Assembly (NCBI GenBank): GCA_016935355.1 | Contig: JAFGRC010000024.1 | Span: 33,050 to 97,049 of the forward strand | DNA length: 64,000 bases | Reading direction: 5' to 3' | DNA from: Bacteroidales bacterium | Lineage (GTDB): Bacteria > Bacteroidota > Bacteroidia > Bacteroidales > UBA10428 | Shown here: one piece after another, positions 5,902-17,276 of the stretch | Numbering within the stretch: the stretch's first letter is position 1 | Layout of the letters: each line of letters opens with the position of its first letter | Translations under genes and position numbers: made by a program | The notes under the pieces: model-generated | Database searches by the model: none | The model's input: only the letters and a program-made list of their open reading frames with translations | What the model was told of the DNA's origin: nothing

Positions 5902-7014
5902 ATGGACACATATCAAATTAAACCGGTTGGCTTTGTTGTCAATGAATTTAATGATCCCGGCGACCGCCATAAAATAAAGGAACAACCGAGTACAATCATC
6001 ATACATGATATTTTCATTGAAGGACTTCTTAATATCGAAGCATGTGCGTTTCTTGACATTGTTTATTATTTGCACAAATCCGAAGGGGATCAGTTGTCCG
6101 GCACTACACCTTCCGGTGCCTTGCGCGGCGCTTTTGCCTCCCGGAGTCCCTTACGGCCTAATCCGATAGGCATTACAACGGTAAAGCTCCTGGAACATGA
6201 TCATAACAAACTGGTGGTAAAGGGACTTGATGCCATCAACCGGACTCCTGTAATCGATATCAAATGCTGCGACACATCCCTGTTTGCTGCTGAACTGGAT
6301 TCGAACTCCGTTCACAATTCCATTCTGATGGCGGACCCGCGGATTGAGATCAGGAATCATATAATAAATAGCCAGACTGAAATATTGATGTTGAAAGCCG
6401 GGCAAATGCACGGACATTATTGTCCGGGGCTCGCGATGGGTGTTATGGCAGCAACCTATGCCATGCATGAATTGACGACCGACTCCGACGGTATGGAGGA
6501 CCTGCTGGCCATCACCGAAACCAACAATTGTTTTTCCGACGGTGTGCAATTCGTTACAGGATGTTCGTTTGGCAACAATGCGCTGATTTTTAAAGATATA
6601 GGCAAAACAGCTTTTACATTGACAAAACGTGACGGCAAGGGCATCAGGATTTGTTCGAGGCATGAATCAAGAAATGTCATTCAGGAGGCATTCCCCGGTT
6701 ATCAGCAGTTATATGAAAAAGTGATAGCACAACAGGATCATGATCCCGGACTGGTAGCAAAATATAAAAAATCAGCACTGGACCGGGCTTTCGGGACTTT
6801 ATCCCTTCCGTTTGACAAACTTTTTACCGTCAGCCGCATCCGTGCTGACATCCCCCCTTATGCACCCGTTCATGAGAGTATGGTCTGTTCCGTCTGTGGC
6901 GAAAGTGTAATGGCTTCAAGGACCGTCAAACGGAACAAAAAACCGGTGTGTGCGGTTTGTGCCAGGACACCCTGTAATACACTTACCGGGGAAGGGATCA
7001 TAATAAACAAATGA
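5902..7014 (+). CDS. fusion of TrmO/TsaA-like domain with FmdE-like domain and C-terminal zinc ribbon
   Basis: N-term PVGFVVNEF...SPLRPNPIGITTVKLL (TrmO-like); middle GHYCPGLAMGVMAATYAMHEL...NNCFSDGVQFVTGCSFGNNALIFKDIGKTAFT (FmdE); C-term CSVCGE...CAVCA. Confidence 0.85.
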   Translation: MDTYQIKPVGFVVNEFNDPGDRHKIKEQPSTIIIHDIFIEGLLNIEACAFLDIVYYLHKSEGDQLSGTTPSGALRGAFASRSPLRPNPIGITTVKLLEHDHNKLVVKGLDAINRTPVIDIKCCDTSLFAAELDSNSVHNSILMADPRIEIRNHIINSQTEILMLKAGQMHGHYCPGLAMGVMAATYAMHELTTDSDGMEDLLAITETNNCFSDGVQFVTGCSFGNNALIFKDIGKTAFTLTKRDGKGIRICSRHESRNVIQEAFPGYQQLYEKVIAQQDHDPGLVAKYKKSALDRAFGTLSLPFDKLFTVSRIRADIPPYAPVHESMVCSVCGESVMASRTVKRNKKPVCAVCARTPCNTLTGEGIIINK

Positions 7015-7748: not shown

Positions 7749-9209
<1,461 letters not shown>

Positions 9210-9300: not shown

Positions 9301-9954
9301 TTATATGTCTATTATATTGTTCCGGATCGCAAACTTTATCATGTCGACCGATGTTTTCAGGTTGAGCTTCTGCATGATATGATTCTTATGAGTCTCGACG
9401 GTACGGACACTTAGAAACAGTTTGTCCGCTATTTCCTTGTTTGTAAGACTGCTGCCCCACAATCTCAGGATCTCGATTTCACGGACGCTGAGGTTGCTGA
9501 TATCAGCAGAACCATCATCACTTTTCAGTTTGTTTACATATTTGTTCAATAGCAAACTGGTAATGGACTTGCTGAAATAATCATGGCCGTTTCGCAAAGT
9601 ATAAATTGCTTCTATCAGCTCATTCCGTTCCGTCTCTTTGGAGAGAAAACCTTTCGCACCGGCCTTAATGATTTTCAGTACCGTTTCTTCGTCACTGTGG
9701 ACGGAAATGACCAGGATCATAACTTTCGGATGGGATATACCGACTTGCATCATCAGATTCAGCAGCTGAATTGAAAGAATATGCACATTTATGATCAGAA
9801 CATTGATCTTCAAAATCATGAGCTGATCCAAAAGCTTGTTTTTTGAATCAGTCTGGAGCATGATTTCCATATCTTTTACATTGTTCAGCAATGAGCTGAT
9901 GCCCTCCCGAACAAGCCTGTGCTCATCATAAACAGCCAGTGTAATATTCCCCAT
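9301..9954 (-). CDS. NarL/LuxR-family response regulator with non-canonical receiver (Asn at the phospho-acceptor position)
   Basis: Receiver-like N-term plus HTH LSVREIEILRLWGSSLTNKEIADKLFLSVRTVETHKNHIMQKL; KINVLIINVHIL replaces the usual VLLDxxMP. Confidence 0.88.
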   Translation of the reverse strand: MGNITLAVYDEHRLVREGISSLLNNVKDMEIMLQTDSKNKLLDQLMILKINVLIINVHILSIQLLNLMMQVGISHPKVMILVISVHSDEETVLKIIKAGAKGFLSKETERNELIEAIYTLRNGHDYFSKSITSLLLNKYVNKLKSDDGSADISNLSVREIEILRLWGSSLTNKEIADKLFLSVRTVETHKNHIMQKLNLKTSVDMIKFAIRNNIIDI

Positions 9955-9960
9955 AACGCT

Positions 9961-12900
9961 TTAATTATAAATGACTGCAGATGTTTTTATTCTTCCGTCC
10001 ATATATACCAGCAGTGGTTTTTCGAAGCGGACATGTTTGAAATACCTGGTCTGGTGCACAATGTATTGTTCGTCCAGTATGTTCCATCTGATAAAGTCGT
10101 TCATGGATGTTTCCTGAATGGAAAAATACCCGATATTCATGGAAGTCAGATTGTGGAAAAAATGCGAACCCAATGACGAATCCAGCGGAAAATTTGCCAG
10201 GCTGACTTCAACGATAACCTTGGCGTTTGAGATCTGCGGCCATATGACGGGTATCCCGAGGAAAGGATCGCGCGTTCCCCATCTTCCGGGACCGATCAGG
10301 ATATATTGCTTGTTTTGCCGGATCATTTTGTTGTTCAGCTTGTCGATCTCAGCAACCATCTCCTGGGTTTTCAGCTTATCAAAATGTTTGATATCGATAA
10401 AGATCACATCCTGAATGTAATTGACTTCACCGTTACCCAAACTTGATCTCGTATACAATAACATTTGTGATCTGTCAAGTTTGTCAAAATCAATACTGAG
10501 ACTATAGTGGCTACCTATCAGCGGTTTGATCTGCAGCAGATAGAACGACGGAAGGTTGTTTTCCGTCCTGTTCAGATCAACCGCATATTCAATCTCAACC
10601 GGGGATCCCAGGGCCTCTTCCATAGTAATAAGCATATTATCAATTGTTTCCGCAAGAGGTATGTAATCATACTTCAATATATCGGCAAAATTCAGTATGC
10701 GCGGACCGGCATCCGATAAACCGGGTTCTATCCTGTCATTATCAGGATTATAGACCGAAACACAATGATTTAATGTCTGCTGTTTTTCTGCTTCACTGAT
10801 ATCAAGCAATAAAAGAGAAGCCAGTTCACCGTTTTTGACGTAGTCAAAATCATTCTTGGAACAATCAAGCGCATAGAACTTTACCTGTGAGGTATTGATC
10901 AGGTCCTTGGTCGTGAACATTTCAACATTCGGGTATTTTGGTGAAAACCTGTAGGAATTCCATCCTTCCATAACATAAGAACCCAAACCGAAAGCCACAA
11001 CCGCAAATCCTTCCTCCGGTTTCATATGGGCGACGGGATAATAATTAAATGATTGTGCAACTCCGCTCAGATGCGGGTAATAATAACTGTCGTATTGTGC
11101 GCCAACCAGTTCCTGCAGGACAATAGCCATTTTTTCTTCCTCAACCTTATGGTTTATGGATCTGAAGAAGTTCTTCGATTTCCCGGAAAAAACCGATGCG
11201 TATACCAGTTTTATGGCATTGACCAGACTTTTTAATACTGATTTTTTATTTCCCCTGTTGTTCGGCAGAATGTAAGTATCAAAAATACCTGCAAATGGCT
11301 GAGTGAGAGAATCTTCAGAAATACTTGATGAACGTACGGCAATCGGTTTCTCAACCTGATCCAGGAAAAACTCAAGCTTTTTAATCAGACTTTCAGAGAG
11401 ATCTGCCCGGATGAAATGATTTTTTAAGTCACCGAATTCCATTTCAGGATTGATAATAAAATCAAACAAATCATTTCTTTCAATAAAATCTTCAAATTCA
11501 TCCGTACCGACGATCGCCGTAACCGGGGCCCTTATGTTGATCCTCCCGTTCAGCGCTGAAAAGTCGAGGTTATTGACCAGTGCATTGATAAAGGCCAGCC
11601 CTCTTCCTTTCCCGCCAAACGATCCCGGGGATAACGACACGATGTTCTTTTCATCCAGCGTAGCCGTCTCATCAAAGTTCAATACCTTACCCTTCTTTTT
11701 TTCGTCTTTGTATTTTTTAATTGTATCAATAAATAATTTCTTTGATTCCACAACCTGCCGGATATCGTCAATTCTTAAAGGATTCAATGTTCTTGCCAGT
11801 TCGATCTCCCCTCTTGCCATGAGCCATAATGAAAACTGGTTTTCCGAAGCGTGCAGATAAAATGTCTCATCAGGGATGGCTTTGAGCAGTGATTCGAATT
11901 CTCTCATTGAGCTGGCAACTGCTATCGGCCTGCCTTCTTTATCCCTGAAAATAAAGTCGCCAAAGCCCAGATAAGCATTCAGGAAATTCTTCAGATCATT
12001 TAAAAGGGTTTCTGAATTTTTATTGATGAAACTGACATTCAGCTTCCCGGCCAGCTGCTCATTGCTTTTTTCGGATGACTGAAGAATAATGGGCAGGTTA
12101 AGAATATGAGATTTCATGTATTTGATAAACCGGATCCCCGCTTTTTTATCAGGCCTGCCATCTCTTTCAAATTCCACATCCGATATCACACAAAGCAAGA
12201 AATCCTTATACTTTTCAAAGATGCTCATCGCATCCTCATAATTCGTGGCATGTAATATTTTTGGCCTCGACCTCATTTTGCAAATCTTGTCAAGTTCATT
12301 TTTTTCCACTTCAGGCAATACCTGCTGTACCTGACCAAATACTATGGAATATAAAATGGGAAGGTATTTGGAATAGTACTGGGCAGAATCTTCGATCAGG
12401 AGAATAATCCTCACCAGACCTATTTTGGTGTCATTTTCAACATTTACCTGATCCTCTATCGATTTGACCATCGCAAAGAAGATCTGTGAATCGCCGGTCC
12501 ACATAAAAAGCTTATTAACCGAGCTGATGGTGGGAACCAGCTCTTCAAAATACTGTATGTTACTCTTCTGGTTCAGCAAAAGATATATCAGGAGATCCGG
12601 GCACTTTTCCCTGATCTGATCGCTCAACCTGACCGGAGTCTCCCGGTCCATTCCCACCATAATGATCACAAGATCAAAACGTGTATTGTCAAGCAGACCC
12701 ATAGCTTCCTCGGTTGTGGTAACACCCGTGATCCTCGGCAGGGAAAAAAGACTGTACTGGTATATGATTCCCATGAACTGCTCAAAGAAACTGCTTTCAT
12801 TTTCGAGCGTGAAGGCATCGTATAGGGTAGCGACAAAAAGTATCTCTTTCACCTTATACTTCATCATGTCAAGATATATATATTTCTCAATGGTTTGCTG

Positions 12901-14544
12901 ATTGAAGAAAAGCTGCAGGGGTCGTTTATTCCTGATCAGGGATTGCCGGTATTCGTCAGGTTTAAAGACCGGTACCGCGCTGAACTTTATCTTGTTGATA
13001 ATTTCCCTTCCCTTGTAATTATTCAGATAGCCGCTTATCAGTTTACCCAGATTGAATATCAGATTCCGTTCTTCTTTCATAAACGGACCTTCGTATGAAT
13101 CCGGAAATTCCTTCTGGTAGAATACTTCAATGATCCCCTTTTTGTTGTCAACAGTGATGAAATTCTCTTTCTGTACCCACATGGTTTCGGAAAAATTCCT
13201 GCTGACATAGGTTTTTCCTTCAAAGCGGATCCTTGCAGCGGTATATCCGGGATACTGCCATGATCCTGGTATAATTGAGACGATTTTTTGTAATGTTTCA
13301 TCGACGGGCCTGCTCATGGAAATGATCCGGGTGGTCTGATTAATAAGCTTCAGTTCCTTTAACCGTTCCCGGTTTTCATACAACAGGTTGTTAAAGACAT
13401 TCCTGATTGCCGAACCGGCAATCAGGCTTGCAATATTGATCAGCAGATCCCGCTCCTCCTTTAAAAATGGACCTTCATCAGCTTCAGGAAATTCCTTCAG
13501 ATAGAAAACCTCAATAATGCCTTTAAGCTTTTTGGGACTTTCAAAACTCTGACGCTGAACCCATAATGTTTCAATAAAATTTTTACTGGTAAAGATCCGG
13601 GAATCATATGTGATCCTGACAGCTGTATATTCGGGATATTGATAGGCTTCCGGCAGAATGGCACAAATGGTCTGCAATGATTCATCCACAGTCCTGCTCT
13701 CCCTGAGGATCAGTGAAGTCTGATTAAGTCCCCTTAATTCCTTTAATCTTTCAGCGTTCTTCTGGATCAGCTGCTCCAGTTCAATCTGGGAACCTGAATT
13801 TGAAATCAAAGAGGACAAGGTGTTGATGAGCATCAGTTCTTCCTTCAGGAAAGGACCTTCAAAGGCCACCGGGAATTCCTTCAGATAATAGATTTCAATA
13901 GTCCCGGTTTTCAACTTTGGTGTTTCGAATGTCTTGTTCAGCACCCAAGGTGTTTCCTTAAACTTTCTGCTTGTGAAGACCATGTCCCCGAATGTAATTC
14001 TGGCGGCTGTATACGCCGGATACTGAAAAGCTTCGGGAAGCAGCAGACAGATCTCCTGCAACGACTCTTCAAATGAAATGCCACGTTTCAGTATCTCTGC
14101 CGTTCTGTGTATGCTTGTCAATTCTTTGATCCTCTCGGTGTTTTCATGCAATATGCCGGCCAGTAAATAATTGGATATTTTACCCGAGATCAGGTCACCA
14201 ATATTTGCTATAAAACTGTTATCCTGTTTCAGCAACTCTTTGGCCGATATTTCATTTAATTTTCCCGAATGGTGGATTTCGATAATGCCCTTGATCTTAT
14301 CCGTTATGTCAAACAAATGCCTTTCAAGCCAGCGTGATGTCTTGAAATCTGCACTTCTGAATTCATGATGATCATATGAAATATAAACTGACAGTTTGTC
14401 GGGTTCAACATATGCCTCCCGGATGATATCACAAATCTGCTGTAAAGCCAGCTCTATCGATCCTGTTTCATTCAGCAGCTTCGCAGTCTTTGTTATGGCT
14501 GATAACCTTCGACCGGCAACCTCATAATCCAAATGTTCCGCCAT
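9961..14544 (-). CDS. 1527-aa multidomain protein: four sensor-like repeats, two receiver-like segments, PEP-synthase/PPDK-type ATP-grasp domain
   Basis: Repeats GIIEVFYLKEFPEADEGPFLKEERDLLINIASLI x4; REC-like IILLIEDSA...CVISDVEF...ILQSS...FINKN; ATP-grasp SPGSFGGKGRGLAFI...PIAVRSSSISEDSLTQPFAGIFDTY. Confidence 0.85.
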   Translation of the reverse strand: MAEHLDYEVAGRRLSAITKTAKLLNETGSIELALQQICDIIREAYVEPDKLSVYISYDHHEFRSADFKTSRWLERHLFDITDKIKGIIEIHHSGKLNEISAKELLKQDNSFIANIGDLISGKISNYLLAGILHENTERIKELTSIHRTAEILKRGISFEESLQEICLLLPEAFQYPAYTAARITFGDMVFTSRKFKETPWVLNKTFETPKLKTGTIEIYYLKEFPVAFEGPFLKEELMLINTLSSLISNSGSQIELEQLIQKNAERLKELRGLNQTSLILRESRTVDESLQTICAILPEAYQYPEYTAVRITYDSRIFTSKNFIETLWVQRQSFESPKKLKGIIEVFYLKEFPEADEGPFLKEERDLLINIASLIAGSAIRNVFNNLLYENRERLKELKLINQTTRIISMSRPVDETLQKIVSIIPGSWQYPGYTAARIRFEGKTYVSRNFSETMWVQKENFITVDNKKGIIEVFYQKEFPDSYEGPFMKEERNLIFNLGKLISGYLNNYKGREIINKIKFSAVPVFKPDEYRQSLIRNKRPLQLFFNQQTIEKYIYLDMMKYKVKEILFVATLYDAFTLENESSFFEQFMGIIYQYSLFSLPRITGVTTTEEAMGLLDNTRFDLVIIMVGMDRETPVRLSDQIREKCPDLLIYLLLNQKSNIQYFEELVPTISSVNKLFMWTGDSQIFFAMVKSIEDQVNVENDTKIGLVRIILLIEDSAQYYSKYLPILYSIVFGQVQQVLPEVEKNELDKICKMRSRPKILHATNYEDAMSIFEKYKDFLLCVISDVEFERDGRPDKKAGIRFIKYMKSHILNLPIILQSSEKSNEQLAGKLNVSFINKNSETLLNDLKNFLNAYLGFGDFIFRDKEGRPIAVASSMREFESLLKAIPDETFYLHASENQFSLWLMARGEIELARTLNPLRIDDIRQVVESKKLFIDTIKKYKDEKKKGKVLNFDETATLDEKNIVSLSPGSFGGKGRGLAFINALVNNLDFSALNGRINIRAPVTAIVGTDEFEDFIERNDLFDFIINPEMEFGDLKNHFIRADLSESLIKKLEFFLDQVEKPIAVRSSSISEDSLTQPFAGIFDTYILPNNRGNKKSVLKSLVNAIKLVYASVFSGKSKNFFRSINHKVEEEKMAIVLQELVGAQYDSYYYPHLSGVAQSFNYYPVAHMKPEEGFAVVAFGLGSYVMEGWNSYRFSPKYPNVEMFTTKDLINTSQVKFYALDCSKNDFDYVKNGELASLLLLDISEAEKQQTLNHCVSVYNPDNDRIEPGLSDAGPRILNFADILKYDYIPLAETIDNMLITMEEALGSPVEIEYAVDLNRTENNLPSFYLLQIKPLIGSHYSLSIDFDKLDRSQMLLYTRSSLGNGEVNYIQDVIFIDIKHFDKLKTQEMVAEIDKLNNKMIRQNKQYILIGPGRWGTRDPFLGIPVIWPQISNAKVIVEVSLANFPLDSSLGSHFFHNLTSMNIGYFSIQETSMNDFIRWNILDEQYIVHQTRYFKHVRFEKPLLVYMDGRIKTSAVIYN

Positions 14545-14730: not shown

Positions 14731-16203
14731 TCAGATCCCGGATAAGTACCTGTGTATTGCAAATGCGGCCTTTCTTCCATCTCCCATGGCAGCAATAACA
14801 GTGGCACCACCCCTTACGATATCACCTCCTGCATAAAATCCTTCAACATTTGCTTTCATCAGTTCTCCGCAAACTTCAATAGTACCGGAAGGAGTGACCT
14901 TAAGTTCGGGCATGTGCATTGATATTAAAGGATTGGGGGAAACCCCGATGCTGACAATTACCATATCTGCCTGGAGAGAATATTCCGAATCTTTGAGCGG
15001 TACCGGTCTGCACCGTCCCGATGCATCGGGCTCACCCAATTCCATTCTGCGAAGTTTAATCCTGTTCACCCTTCCGTTTTCATCTGCAAGATATTCAACC
15101 GGTTCATTCAGGTTTAAAAATTCGACTCCCTCTTCCATGGCGTGCTTGATCTCTTCTTTTCTTGCAGGCATTTCATTAAAAGACCTCCGGTAGATGATCA
15201 TTGCCCGTTCAGCACCCAGCCTTTTTGCCGTTCGAACGGAATCCATGGCTGTATTTCCTCCGCCGATCACGGCTACATTTCTTCCATAAAACACAGGAGT
15301 GTCATAATCCTGTTTTGCTGCGCCCATCAGATTGATCCTTGTGAGATATTCATTGGCAGACATGATGCCAACGTGATTTTCTCCGGGAATGTTCATAAAC
15401 TTTGGTAATCCGGCACCACTGCCGATAAAGAAAGCTTTATAACCCGACTCTTTCAGATCATCATGCGACAATGTTTTACCGATGATGATATTTGTGTAGA
15501 ACTTAACGCCTATCTTTTTCAGGTTGTCGATCTCAAATTCTATGATATGATTCGGCAGCCTGAATTCAGGTATGCCATAACGCAACACTCCTCCCAGTTC
15601 GTGCAATGCTTCATAGACCGATACCTGATACCCGTAACGGGCAAGGTCACCTGCTGCTGCAATACCTGCGGGGCCCGATCCGACCACAGCCACTTTTACC
15701 TGTGATATTTTCCCGATTTCAGGAATATAAGTTGTACCGGATTCTCTTTCGTAATCTGCAACAAACCTTTCGAGATAACCGATTGCAACAGGTTCTTTAT
15801 TCAGCTTATCAAAATAAATGCAATTCTTCTCACACTGAACCTCCTGCGGACAAACACGGCCGCAAATTGCAGGGAAAAGATTGCTTTGTTTGATGACCTG
15901 TGCAGATTTTAAAAAATCACCGGCCTCAATGTACTTTATGAATGTTGGTATATCAACACCGACCGGACAACCCTGTATGCAGGGCGGATTGGCACAATCC
16001 AGGCAACGCTGCGCCTCCTTTACGGCCTCAAAGACTGACAAACCCTTATTCACCTCGGTATTGCCCTTCAATCTTTCAATAGGATCTTCCATGGGCATCA
16101 CGACCCTTTTGATCGCCATTCTTTCCTTTGCTGTCATCGATTTGCGCAGTTCTTTGCGCCACTCATCTCTTATCATAACAGGCTCAATGCTTAATTCCTT
16201 CAT
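14731..16203 (-). CDS. NADPH-dependent glutamate synthase small-subunit-like / NfnB-like flavoprotein
   Basis: CLDCANPPCIQGCPVGVDIPTFIKYI, VAVVGSGPAGIAAAGDLARYGYQVSVYEA, NVAVIGGGNTAMDS. Confidence 0.9.
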   Translation of the reverse strand: MKELSIEPVMIRDEWRKELRKSMTAKERMAIKRVVMPMEDPIERLKGNTEVNKGLSVFEAVKEAQRCLDCANPPCIQGCPVGVDIPTFIKYIEAGDFLKSAQVIKQSNLFPAICGRVCPQEVQCEKNCIYFDKLNKEPVAIGYLERFVADYERESGTTYIPEIGKISQVKVAVVGSGPAGIAAAGDLARYGYQVSVYEALHELGGVLRYGIPEFRLPNHIIEFEIDNLKKIGVKFYTNIIIGKTLSHDDLKESGYKAFFIGSGAGLPKFMNIPGENHVGIMSANEYLTRINLMGAAKQDYDTPVFYGRNVAVIGGGNTAMDSVRTAKRLGAERAMIIYRRSFNEMPARKEEIKHAMEEGVEFLNLNEPVEYLADENGRVNRIKLRRMELGEPDASGRCRPVPLKDSEYSLQADMVIVSIGVSPNPLISMHMPELKVTPSGTIEVCGELMKANVEGFYAGGDIVRGGATVIAAMGDGRKAAFAIHRYLSGI

Positions 16204-16210
16204 ATTGATA

Positions 16211-17044
16211 TCAATTGGCAACCTTTCCTTTCAGAAACTCCCCGTAATTATATTTCTCTTCTTTTTTGTATCCGGCGAGCCGGATAAGCAATTCATCAAA
16301 ATCGACTTCATGAGCATTGAACTCAGGTCCGTCAATACATGCGAATTTTCTTTGTCCTGCCACGGTAACCCTGCATGCCCCGCACATCCCCGTCCCATCT
16401 ATCATAATTGTATTCAGACTGGCAATTGTGGGAATGTTGTACTTTTTCGTAAGCAAGCTGGTGTATTTCATCATAATGGCCGGACCAATGGTAACCGCCT
16501 TATGAATTGTTTCTCGCCGGATGATTTGCTCCATCCCTTCCGTGATCAGTCCTTTCATGCCCTGACTGCCATCATCCGTCATCACCAGTAATTCATCGGA
16601 AAAAGCACGCATCTCTTTTTCGAGTATAACCAGCTCTTTTGTCCGGGCAGCCAATACCGTTACAATACGGTTGCCTGCTTCGTGAAATGCCTCAGCGATG
16701 GGTAAAAGCGGTGCTATTCCAACCCCGCCACCGGCACACAGTACGGTCCCGACTTTTTCAATGTGTGTGGGACGGCCCAGGGGACCGACAACATCGGTTA
16801 CCGTTTCTCCGACTTTCAGACTCGCAATTTTATGACTGCTGACACCAACAATCTGTACAATCAGCGAAATGGTTCCCTTCTCTGCATCCGATCCGGTTAT
16901 TGTCAGCGGAATCCGTTCACCCTTCCGTCCTATTTTCACAATCACAAAATTTCCGGGTTGTCTTTTTCTGGAAATCAGTGGCGCTTCAATTTCAAACCTG
17001 ACAACATTCTTTCCAAGGTTTTCTTTTGCAATAACCTTATTCAT
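16211..17044 (-). CDS. sulfide/dihydroorotate dehydrogenase-like FAD/NAD-binding protein (NfnA-like)
   Basis: MNKVIAKENLGKNVVRFEIEAPLISRKRQPGNFVIVKIGRKGERIPLTI; C-terminal cluster motif GTGMCGACRVTVAGQRKFACIDGPEF. Confidence 0.9.
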   Translation of the reverse strand: MNKVIAKENLGKNVVRFEIEAPLISRKRQPGNFVIVKIGRKGERIPLTITGSDAEKGTISLIVQIVGVSSHKIASLKVGETVTDVVGPLGRPTHIEKVGTVLCAGGGVGIAPLLPIAEAFHEAGNRIVTVLAARTKELVILEKEMRAFSDELLVMTDDGSQGMKGLITEGMEQIIRRETIHKAVTIGPAIMMKYTSLLTKKYNIPTIASLNTIMIDGTGMCGACRVTVAGQRKFACIDGPEFNAHEVDFDELLIRLAGYKKEEKYNYGEFLKGKVAN

Positions 17045-17276
17045 GCCCTTTTTCGTATGAAAATAATGTATCTTCACTAAACAAATAAAAGACTAATAAA
17101 TATTACGTATTTCCTCTACGTAAATGACGTAACGGATTTTCTCACGCGTTTTCCGTTTTCAGGTACTGACCGTGTATTAATTCCGCCCTTTAATCTTTTA
17201 TTCACCAAATTGAATTTGTAAATTTACATGAGATGCAAACTGCAAAGGTAATCAAATATACTATTTGCATATTGCT

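Follow-up and report, generated by a model that had tools for sequence, protein, structure and literature searches.

The window, a stretch of 64,000 nucleotides from a Bacteroidales genome, contains at 9961-14544 an open reading frame of 1527 aa with no internal stop. As the first-pass annotation stated, this gene ends 6 bp from the downstream gene of a 217-aa regulator. The encoded protein consists of four GAF-like repeats, two receivers (Rec1 and Rec2), a linker, a PPDK_N ATP-grasp domain and a conserved C-terminal domain, and relatives from the same genus and family share 59-71% identity with it across nearly the full length. The features of the locus are as follows.

7749..9197, minus strand: NADP-specific glutamate dehydrogenase (GDH), a conserved neighbour of the family (ORF table, neighbourhood counts)
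9301..9954, minus strand: LuxR/NarL-type regulator, 217 aa, with Asn for the phospho-acceptor Asp at residue 56 (ORF table, domain search, alignment)
9961..14544, minus strand: sensor-receiver-ATP-grasp protein, 1527 aa (ORF table, domain search, relatives)
14179..14508, minus strand: GAF-like sensor repeat 1, residues 13-122, which has diverged most among the four (iterated profile, alignment)
13798..14136, minus strand: GAF-like sensor repeat 2, residues 137-249 (iterated profile, alignment)
13414..13752, minus strand: GAF-like sensor repeat 3, residues 265-377 (iterated profile, alignment)
13024..13368, minus strand: GAF-like sensor repeat 4, residues 393-507 (iterated profile, alignment)
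12430..12903, minus strand: Rec1, an Asp-less receiver, residues 548-705, with the phospho-acceptor replaced by M/T and the Lys by W (Pfam, PDB, alignment)
11959..12429, minus strand: receiver-like domain Rec2, residues 706-862, with E718, D719, D789, S823 and K842 (alignment, Pfam)
11620..11958, minus strand: linker domain without an assigned family, residues 863-975, in which the motif H...N.FS.WL is conserved (alignment)
10519..11619, minus strand: PPDK/PEP-synthase-type ATP-grasp domain, PPDK_N, residues 976-1342 (PF01326, AF2 model, Foldseek)
9964..10515, minus strand: conserved C-terminal domain, residues 1344-1527, with GxGRWG, E1446, S-x-G-[ST]-H1461-F-F and Y1473 (alignment, model)
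10162..10164, minus strand: codon of H1461 (alignment)
14731-16221, minus strand: GltD/NfnB-like flavoprotein gene, found repeatedly near the sensor-type gene (neighbourhood counts)
16211-17077, minus strand: SudB/NfnA-like flavoprotein gene, which recurs near the sensor-type gene together with the preceding one (neighbourhood counts)

The four N-terminal repeats proposed at first were all recovered by an iterated profile of 115 positions, with scores of 99-165 bits. Repeats 2 and 4 align with repeat 3 at 54-55% identity, and repeat 1 at 34%. The repeat-family profile gave a weak match in the PDB to the GAF chain of the NifA-like protein Nlh2 (4g3v, E 0.0018), and the match to Pfam GAF was also weak (3 of 33 repeat-family members, best E 0.006). 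Other proteins combine the same repeat with a histidine kinase, a Crp-type regulator or a nucleotidyltransferase. Related genomes encode hybrid GAF/PAS sensor histidine kinases that share the repeat (L056, L057, L058, L060, L061), and most of these contain receivers, as the window protein does. Unlike these kinases, the window protein has no HisKA or HATPase domain, and the ATP-grasp module occupies that place.

Rec1 and Rec2 agree with the initial description of a degenerate receiver followed by a segment with the full residue set. Rec1 is a receiver homologue, detected by Pfam Response_reg in 37 of 39 members and matching PDB receivers at E 3e-7. In all 39 members M/T replaces the Asp and W the Lys, which makes Rec1 an Asp-less receiver. 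Rec2 stays below the cut-off for Pfam Response_reg (20/39 members at E<0.1, best E 1e-4). In an alignment of 75 sequences E718, D789, S823 and K842 are invariant and D719 is found in 74, and this conservation of E/D, D, S and K makes Rec2 look like a maintained active site.

The PEP-synthase-type ATP-grasp was confirmed as PPDK_N (PF01326, residues 976-1342, E 3e-33). Foldseek with the AF2 model of this domain found rifampin phosphotransferase (RPH, 5hv1, E 7e-15), then PEP synthase (PEPS, 2ols) and PPDK (1kbl), and NCBIfam relatives of the window protein include the prodigiosin ligase PigC. The checked ATP-site residues, G977-G978-K979, R1071, E1319 and Q1338, do not vary among 67 members, the most distant at about 24% identity, and on this ground the ATP-grasp also looks like a maintained active site. 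The nucleotide domain is thus homologous to that of rifampin phosphotransferase, PEP synthase and PPDK, but in the window protein it comes without a PEP/pyruvate or rifamycin domain and without a recognisable PF00391 phospho-His domain. The first reading, that the protein has neither a histidine kinase core nor a complete PEP synthase, also held: profile searches of the 1527-aa protein gave no match to HisKA or HATPase_c at E up to 1, and PEP-utilizers and PEP-utilizers_C matched neither this protein nor family members. The C-terminal PEP/pyruvate-binding barrel was not found, and the protein ends after the 184-aa C-terminal domain.

For the part after the ATP-grasp the first-pass annotation had listed only missing domains. 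This needs correcting: about 180 residues with extremely conserved motifs come next, and they are modelled with high confidence in the predicted structure. The claim that a swivelling His domain is missing agrees with the profile and fold searches, but a conserved domain with an invariant His sits in its place. Across 67 members, H1461 is the single His that never varies within the ATP-grasp plus C-terminal module. In these 67 members hmmscan found no PF00391 swivelling phospho-His domain with its GGxTSHAA motif, hhalign gave no match between the C-terminal domain and the His domains of PPDK, PEPS or EI, and Foldseek with the isolated C-terminal model gave nothing significant (best E 0.03), with no phospho-His domain in the top 50. 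A divergent PF00391 is therefore unsupported by the three methods and stays a possibility only. The weak Foldseek matches were to glycosylases, LD-carboxypeptidase and others. Hints toward a phospho-His domain come from the location of the S-x-G-[ST]-H-F-F motif where a helix starts and from the succession of strands and helices. A stand-alone C-terminal domain was rejected, because practically all matches of a profile search lay in long ATP-grasp-family ORFs or in fragments; a 275-aa case (L068) adjoins a run of N, retains the end of the ATP-grasp and looks like a fragment.

The Rec-Rec-ATP-grasp-C-terminal core of about 1000 aa is an old family of several phyla. It was found in 101 of the 117 Bacteroidales genomes sampled, as well as in several other phyla, mostly without sensor repeats and usually without the regulator. 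The GAF array is an add-on to this older core, and the sensor protein with its regulator is a local, sensor-equipped version of the family. Relatives of about 580 aa carry this ATP-grasp and C-terminal domain but no receivers. A divergent relative of the ATP-grasp, present as a fragment, lies next to glutamate synthase.

The most consistent neighbours of the core family are GDH and the KorAB-type 2-oxoacid:ferredoxin oxidoreductase. In a phylum-wide sample NADP-GDH lies within 5 kb of 19 of 23 core genes, and near the same genes KorAB was found in 0/23 and Nfn in 1/23. GDH is near 14 of 21 sensor-type genes in the order-level sample and near 6 of 11 genes at loci outside Bacteroidales, mostly in other phyla; GDH or Kor is near 26 of 35 sensor-type genes in the best 80 GTDB loci. 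Core-only genes often come after KorA-KorB, including arrays of KorA-KorB-sensor core-core-GDH, and 8 of 18 order-level core-only genes have neither GDH nor Kor nearby. The linkage of GDH and core is preserved in three different orientations, and several genomes with two GDHs have two GDH-core pairs. Closest relatives among the cores usually lie beside GDHs of matching type (Mantel r 0.71, p 2e-4 by permutation). This linkage could reflect co-expression instead of regulation. The presence of GDH or 2-oxoacid oxidoreductase genes next to relatives in several phyla indicates that the 1527-aa protein probably helps control carbon/nitrogen balance.

The pairing with the regulator is also conserved, as a NarL-type regulator lies within 5 kb of 13 of the 21 sensor-type core genes of the order-level sample. 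The annotation had suggested that the ATP-grasp stands in for a histidine kinase and passes phosphate to this neighbour. Simple phosphotransfer of this kind was rejected, because the phospho-acceptor Asp of the LuxR-type regulator is lost in nearly all relatives, mostly to Asn. Any coupling of the two proteins is, for the same reason, probably non-phosphorylative. A role in anti-phage defence was likewise rejected, since PADLOC gave no match for the 1527-aa protein and the nearby genes are metabolic.

Starting from the domain content, the active-site invariance, the missing histidine kinase core and the conserved linkages, all observed directly, we lean narrowly towards a signal-integrating ATP-grasp enzyme for the glutamate/2-oxoglutarate node, as judged from sequence. 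The four GAF-like domains would be the input, and the Asp-less Rec1 might be a docking or dimer surface. Together with the chemically competent Rec2 they would control the PPDK-type ATP-grasp module, which may use ATP jointly with the C-terminal domain, where H1461 would probably carry the phosphoryl group or act in catalysis. From the gene linkage, the module might modify or regulate the co-encoded GDH and/or the 2-oxoacid:ferredoxin oxidoreductase, and the LuxR-type protein may carry the state to DNA through protein contact, not phosphorylation.

A possible alternative, to which we give some weight, is an ordinary response regulator with an enzymatic output, in which the ATP-grasp enzyme is switched by phosphorylation of D789, the phosphate coming from an external histidine kinase or a small phosphodonor. 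In that case the protein would receive the signal and not send it, with the GAF domains as secondary inputs. The phospho-acceptor residues kept in Rec2 agree with this, and response regulator censuses, where they mention REC-PPDK, place it among the regulators with enzymatic domains (PMC5847659). In L126 and L139 the gene immediately downstream of the core encodes a HisKA_3 histidine kinase, but there the kinase adjoins a NarL-type regulator with an intact Asp, which is a more obvious partner, and inspection of the ORF tables found no kinase adjoining the gene in the window. This reading overlaps with the signal-integrating enzyme, and the main difference is the origin of the signal.

PPDK_N domains in known members (PPDK, PEPS, RPH) act by phosphorylating a His. 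The protein might therefore be a non-classical histidine kinase, in which the ATP-grasp phosphorylates H1461 and the phosphoryl group then moves to D789 of Rec2 in the same chain, replacing HisKA/HATPase chemistry. The position of the invariant H1461 at a helix N-terminus after Ser/Thr, as in the TSH motif, is consistent with this, as are the strand and helix order around it in the model and alignment, the intact Rec2 residues and the occurrence of the sensor repeats on true histidine kinases. We nevertheless consider it unlikely, given the negative hhalign, PF00391 (0/67) and Foldseek searches and the ~580-aa relatives, in which the ATP-grasp and C-terminal module occurs with no receiver. The fuller form of this idea, an independently evolved histidine kinase class for carbon/nitrogen balance in which a PPDK-type ATP-grasp and a new phospho-His domain signal through the same-chain intact receiver to GDH activity, is more doubtful still. 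It is also improbable that the core is a metabolic enzyme which starts from a product of 2-oxoglutarate/glutamate metabolism and makes a small molecule, phosphorylated or ligated, its receivers and GAF domains having a purely allosteric role. The significant fold matches, all to metabolic enzymes, and the relationship to PigC would suit such a role, but signalling is where receivers and sensor arrays typically occur, and separate GDH-core pairs in one genome are more in keeping with a dedicated regulator than with one step of a pathway. The source genome also has a separate ordinary PPDK of 911 aa (L001/L150), on which ground we rejected the gene as the genome's own PEP synthase or PPDK.

The pairing with GDH and 2-oxoacid:ferredoxin oxidoreductase provides a direct, testable hypothesis for regulation of the 2-oxoglutarate/glutamate branch point in Bacteroidota. 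Phosphorylation of H1461 by the ATP-grasp module, if it occurs, would give histidine-aspartate signalling a second route.

In nitrogen signalling of the GlnD/GlnE type, dedicated signalling enzymes act on nitrogen assimilation. The likeness is a functional analogy only, as the core of the window protein has no homology to these enzymes, although its relatives carry sensor-nucleotidyltransferase fusions. REC-PPDK response regulators have been recorded in censuses (Galperin et al., PMC5847659), and PPDK effectors have been associated with Asp-less receivers (PMC4395418). As described there, these regulators have the same core layout as the window protein, with one or more receivers, one of them Asp-less, followed by PPDK_N. 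Rec2 of the window protein has the acidic pair, Asp, Ser/Thr and Lys of such receivers, with a weak family match. The census passages on REC-PPDK mention it only briefly and describe no intact second receiver, C-terminal domain, GAF array, regulator partner or GDH link, and in the literature searched we found nothing on the function of the core family or its link to GDH. Fusions of REC and PPDK are already on record. What appears to be new is the connection to glutamate, the C-terminal domain and the version with the GAF array.

Both genes of the pair reported in the first-pass annotation are present, 6 bp apart, and they and their surroundings in the window are as follows.

14544..9961 (-): ORF of 1527 aa
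residues 976-1342 of the 1527-aa protein: PPDK_N (Pfam, E 3e-33)
residues 605-664 of the 1527-aa protein: weak receiver match (Pfam)
9954..9301 (-): ORF of 217 aa with receiver and GerE (LuxR) domains (Pfam)
14731-17077, same strand, upstream of the 1527-aa gene: NfnAB-like flavoprotein pair (GltD-like and SudB-like)
5902-7014: ORF, by eye an apparent fusion, TrmO/TsaA-like in its N-terminal part and FmdE-like in its C-terminal part

The common form of the protein is a core of about 1000 aa (Rec1-Rec2-linker-ATP-grasp-C-terminal domain) without sensor repeats; variants have 1-4 N-terminal repeats (sensor-type), lack the receivers (about 580 aa) or have the arrangement sensor-PPDK_N-C-terminal domain-nucleotidyltransferase (about 1060 aa). 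The core or its relatives occur in 57 of 60 relatives, in 101 of 117 genomes of the order (C-terminal profile) and in 38 of 197 in a sample across the phylum, with a few marginal cases among them. Records labelled Acidobacteria, Spirochaetes, Cloacimonadota, Riflebacteria, Aminicenantes, Myxococcales and others also carry them, although many are MAGs whose single taxon labels may be wrong. The window's genome has a second, core-only copy adjoining KorA-KorB (L034). One ortholog (L087 / L018, G014:C17) has an in-frame TAG, with the sensor array and the receiver/ATP-grasp part in separate ORFs; this may reflect a pseudogene, an error in sequencing or a genuine split.

NADP-specific glutamate dehydrogenase (GDH) lies within 5 kb of 19 of the 23 phylum-wide core genes with enough flank, the oxidoreductase KorAB near none and the flavoprotein pair Nfn near one. 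At order level, GDH is near 14/21 sensor-type genes, the LuxR regulator near 13/21 and NfnAB-like genes near 6/21, and core-only genes have KorAB nearby in 8/18 cases and GDH in 5/18. GDH or KorAB is near 26 of 35 sensor-type genes in the best 80 GTDB loci, a set picked by similarity to the query, and GDH is near 6 of 11 core genes in a subset outside Bacteroidales, mostly from other phyla; all these samples are phylogenetically non-independent. The linkage is kept across three gene orders, and in loci such as L039 the order is KorA-KorB-(small ORF)-sensor core-core-GDH. Two GDH-core pairs occur in several genomes. Similar cores tend to have similar GDHs (Mantel r 0.71, p 2e-4, 18 pairs, with a contribution from shared species history), which shows co-inheritance of the pairs; this fits dedicated partners, and whole-pair duplication could also yield it. 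Divergent members of the ATP-grasp family lie directly upstream of a glutamate synthase large subunit gene (L068:3-4424, a fragment) and near a second GDH-like gene (L260, about 900 aa). From the observed domains, invariances and linkages we infer that the protein may be an ATP-grasp signalling enzyme serving the glutamate/2-oxoglutarate node; this is the best-supported reading, to which we give roughly an even chance, and its ligand, catalysis, target and direction of signalling are predictions.

The four N-terminal repeats proposed earlier are true homologues of one another (iterated profile, alignment). The repeat domain is widespread and covered well by no Pfam model; we name it, with moderate confidence, a divergent GAF-like domain because Pfam GAF matches 3 of 33 family members and the family profile hits the GAF domain of the NifA-like protein 4g3v (E 0.0018). 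A sensory role is supported by its fusion to HisKA/HATPase kinases (L056, L057, L058, L060, L061), a Crp-like regulator (L044) and nucleotidyltransferases (L059, L046, L065). The L044 gene (5741-6853), a sensor repeat with a cNMP-binding/Crp-type regulator, adjoins a core-only gene. Sensor-nucleotidyltransferase fusions are found at L046:2405-4028, from L229:8223 onward and in L065/L066/L067. In L046 a calcineurin-type phosphoesterase gene adjoins the fusion; L229 is arranged similarly, with an unassigned 282-aa ORF where L046 has the phosphoesterase. L065 carries a sensor-ATP-grasp-nucleotidyltransferase fusion next to a gene from the same phosphoesterase cluster. These fusions and phosphoesterases may also belong to the signalling network.

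The segment annotated as a degenerate receiver (Rec1, 548-705) is a clear receiver homologue (E 3e-7 against PDB receivers; Pfam hits in 37/39 members), and in every member Met or Thr replaces the phospho-acceptor and Trp the Lys. For the second (Rec2, 706-862) the claimed full residue set stands, with E718, D789, S823 and K842 invariant in 75 sequences and D719 having a single exception; the receiver family match is weak and sub-threshold (20/39 members at E<0.1, best 1e-4), so its assignment, as a diverged receiver with an insertion, comes mostly from the residue pattern. An ordinary enzymatic response regulator, in which the signal reaches Rec2 from a separate kinase, is conceivable given these residues, and we hold it to be somewhat doubtful. 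In the GDH-core clusters L126, L135 and L139 the regulators retain the acceptor Asp, and in L126 and L139 a Pfam-confirmed kinase lies beside them. The Asp is kept by only a handful of the approximately 30 regulators that are linked to sensor-type genes; the others have mostly Asn, also Val, Gly, His or Ser. The Asn of the window's regulator is therefore a family trait and not a single mutation, and the LuxR regulators paired with sensor-type genes form a conserved family of Asp-less receivers.

In 67 members, with identities as low as 23-26%, neither the ATP-site residues nor GxGRWG, E1446, S1457, G1459, H1461, F1462, F1463 and Y1473 in the C-terminal domain vary. AlphaFold2 gives confident models both for the two-domain module (pLDDT 90.8) and for the isolated C-terminal domain (pLDDT 92.4); Foldseek matches the module to rifampin phosphotransferase, PEP synthase and PPDK, with E values from 7e-15 to 2e-5. 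The annotation was right that a kinase core and a complete PEP synthase are absent: Pfam and a further domain search matched no HisKA, HATPase or PEP-utilizing domain. On inspection, the C-terminal domain resembles a phospho-His domain in its strand/helix order and in having [ST]H where a helix begins; homology was unsupported by hhalign against phospho-His domains (no match), Foldseek of the isolated domain against PDB (no significant match, best E 0.03) and Pfam (no consistent match among members). A non-classical histidine kinase, in which the ATP-grasp module itself generates the signal through H1461, the sole invariant His of that module, is unlikely. Our confidence in the signalling enzyme of the glutamate/2-oxoglutarate node overlaps with that in both alternatives, because all concern parts of the same model.

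A literature search in a limited paper collection found no paper on the function of the family or its GDH linkage. The REC and PPDK combination is listed in a response-regulator census (PMC5847659), and an association of PPDK effectors with Asp-less receivers has been noted (PMC4395418).
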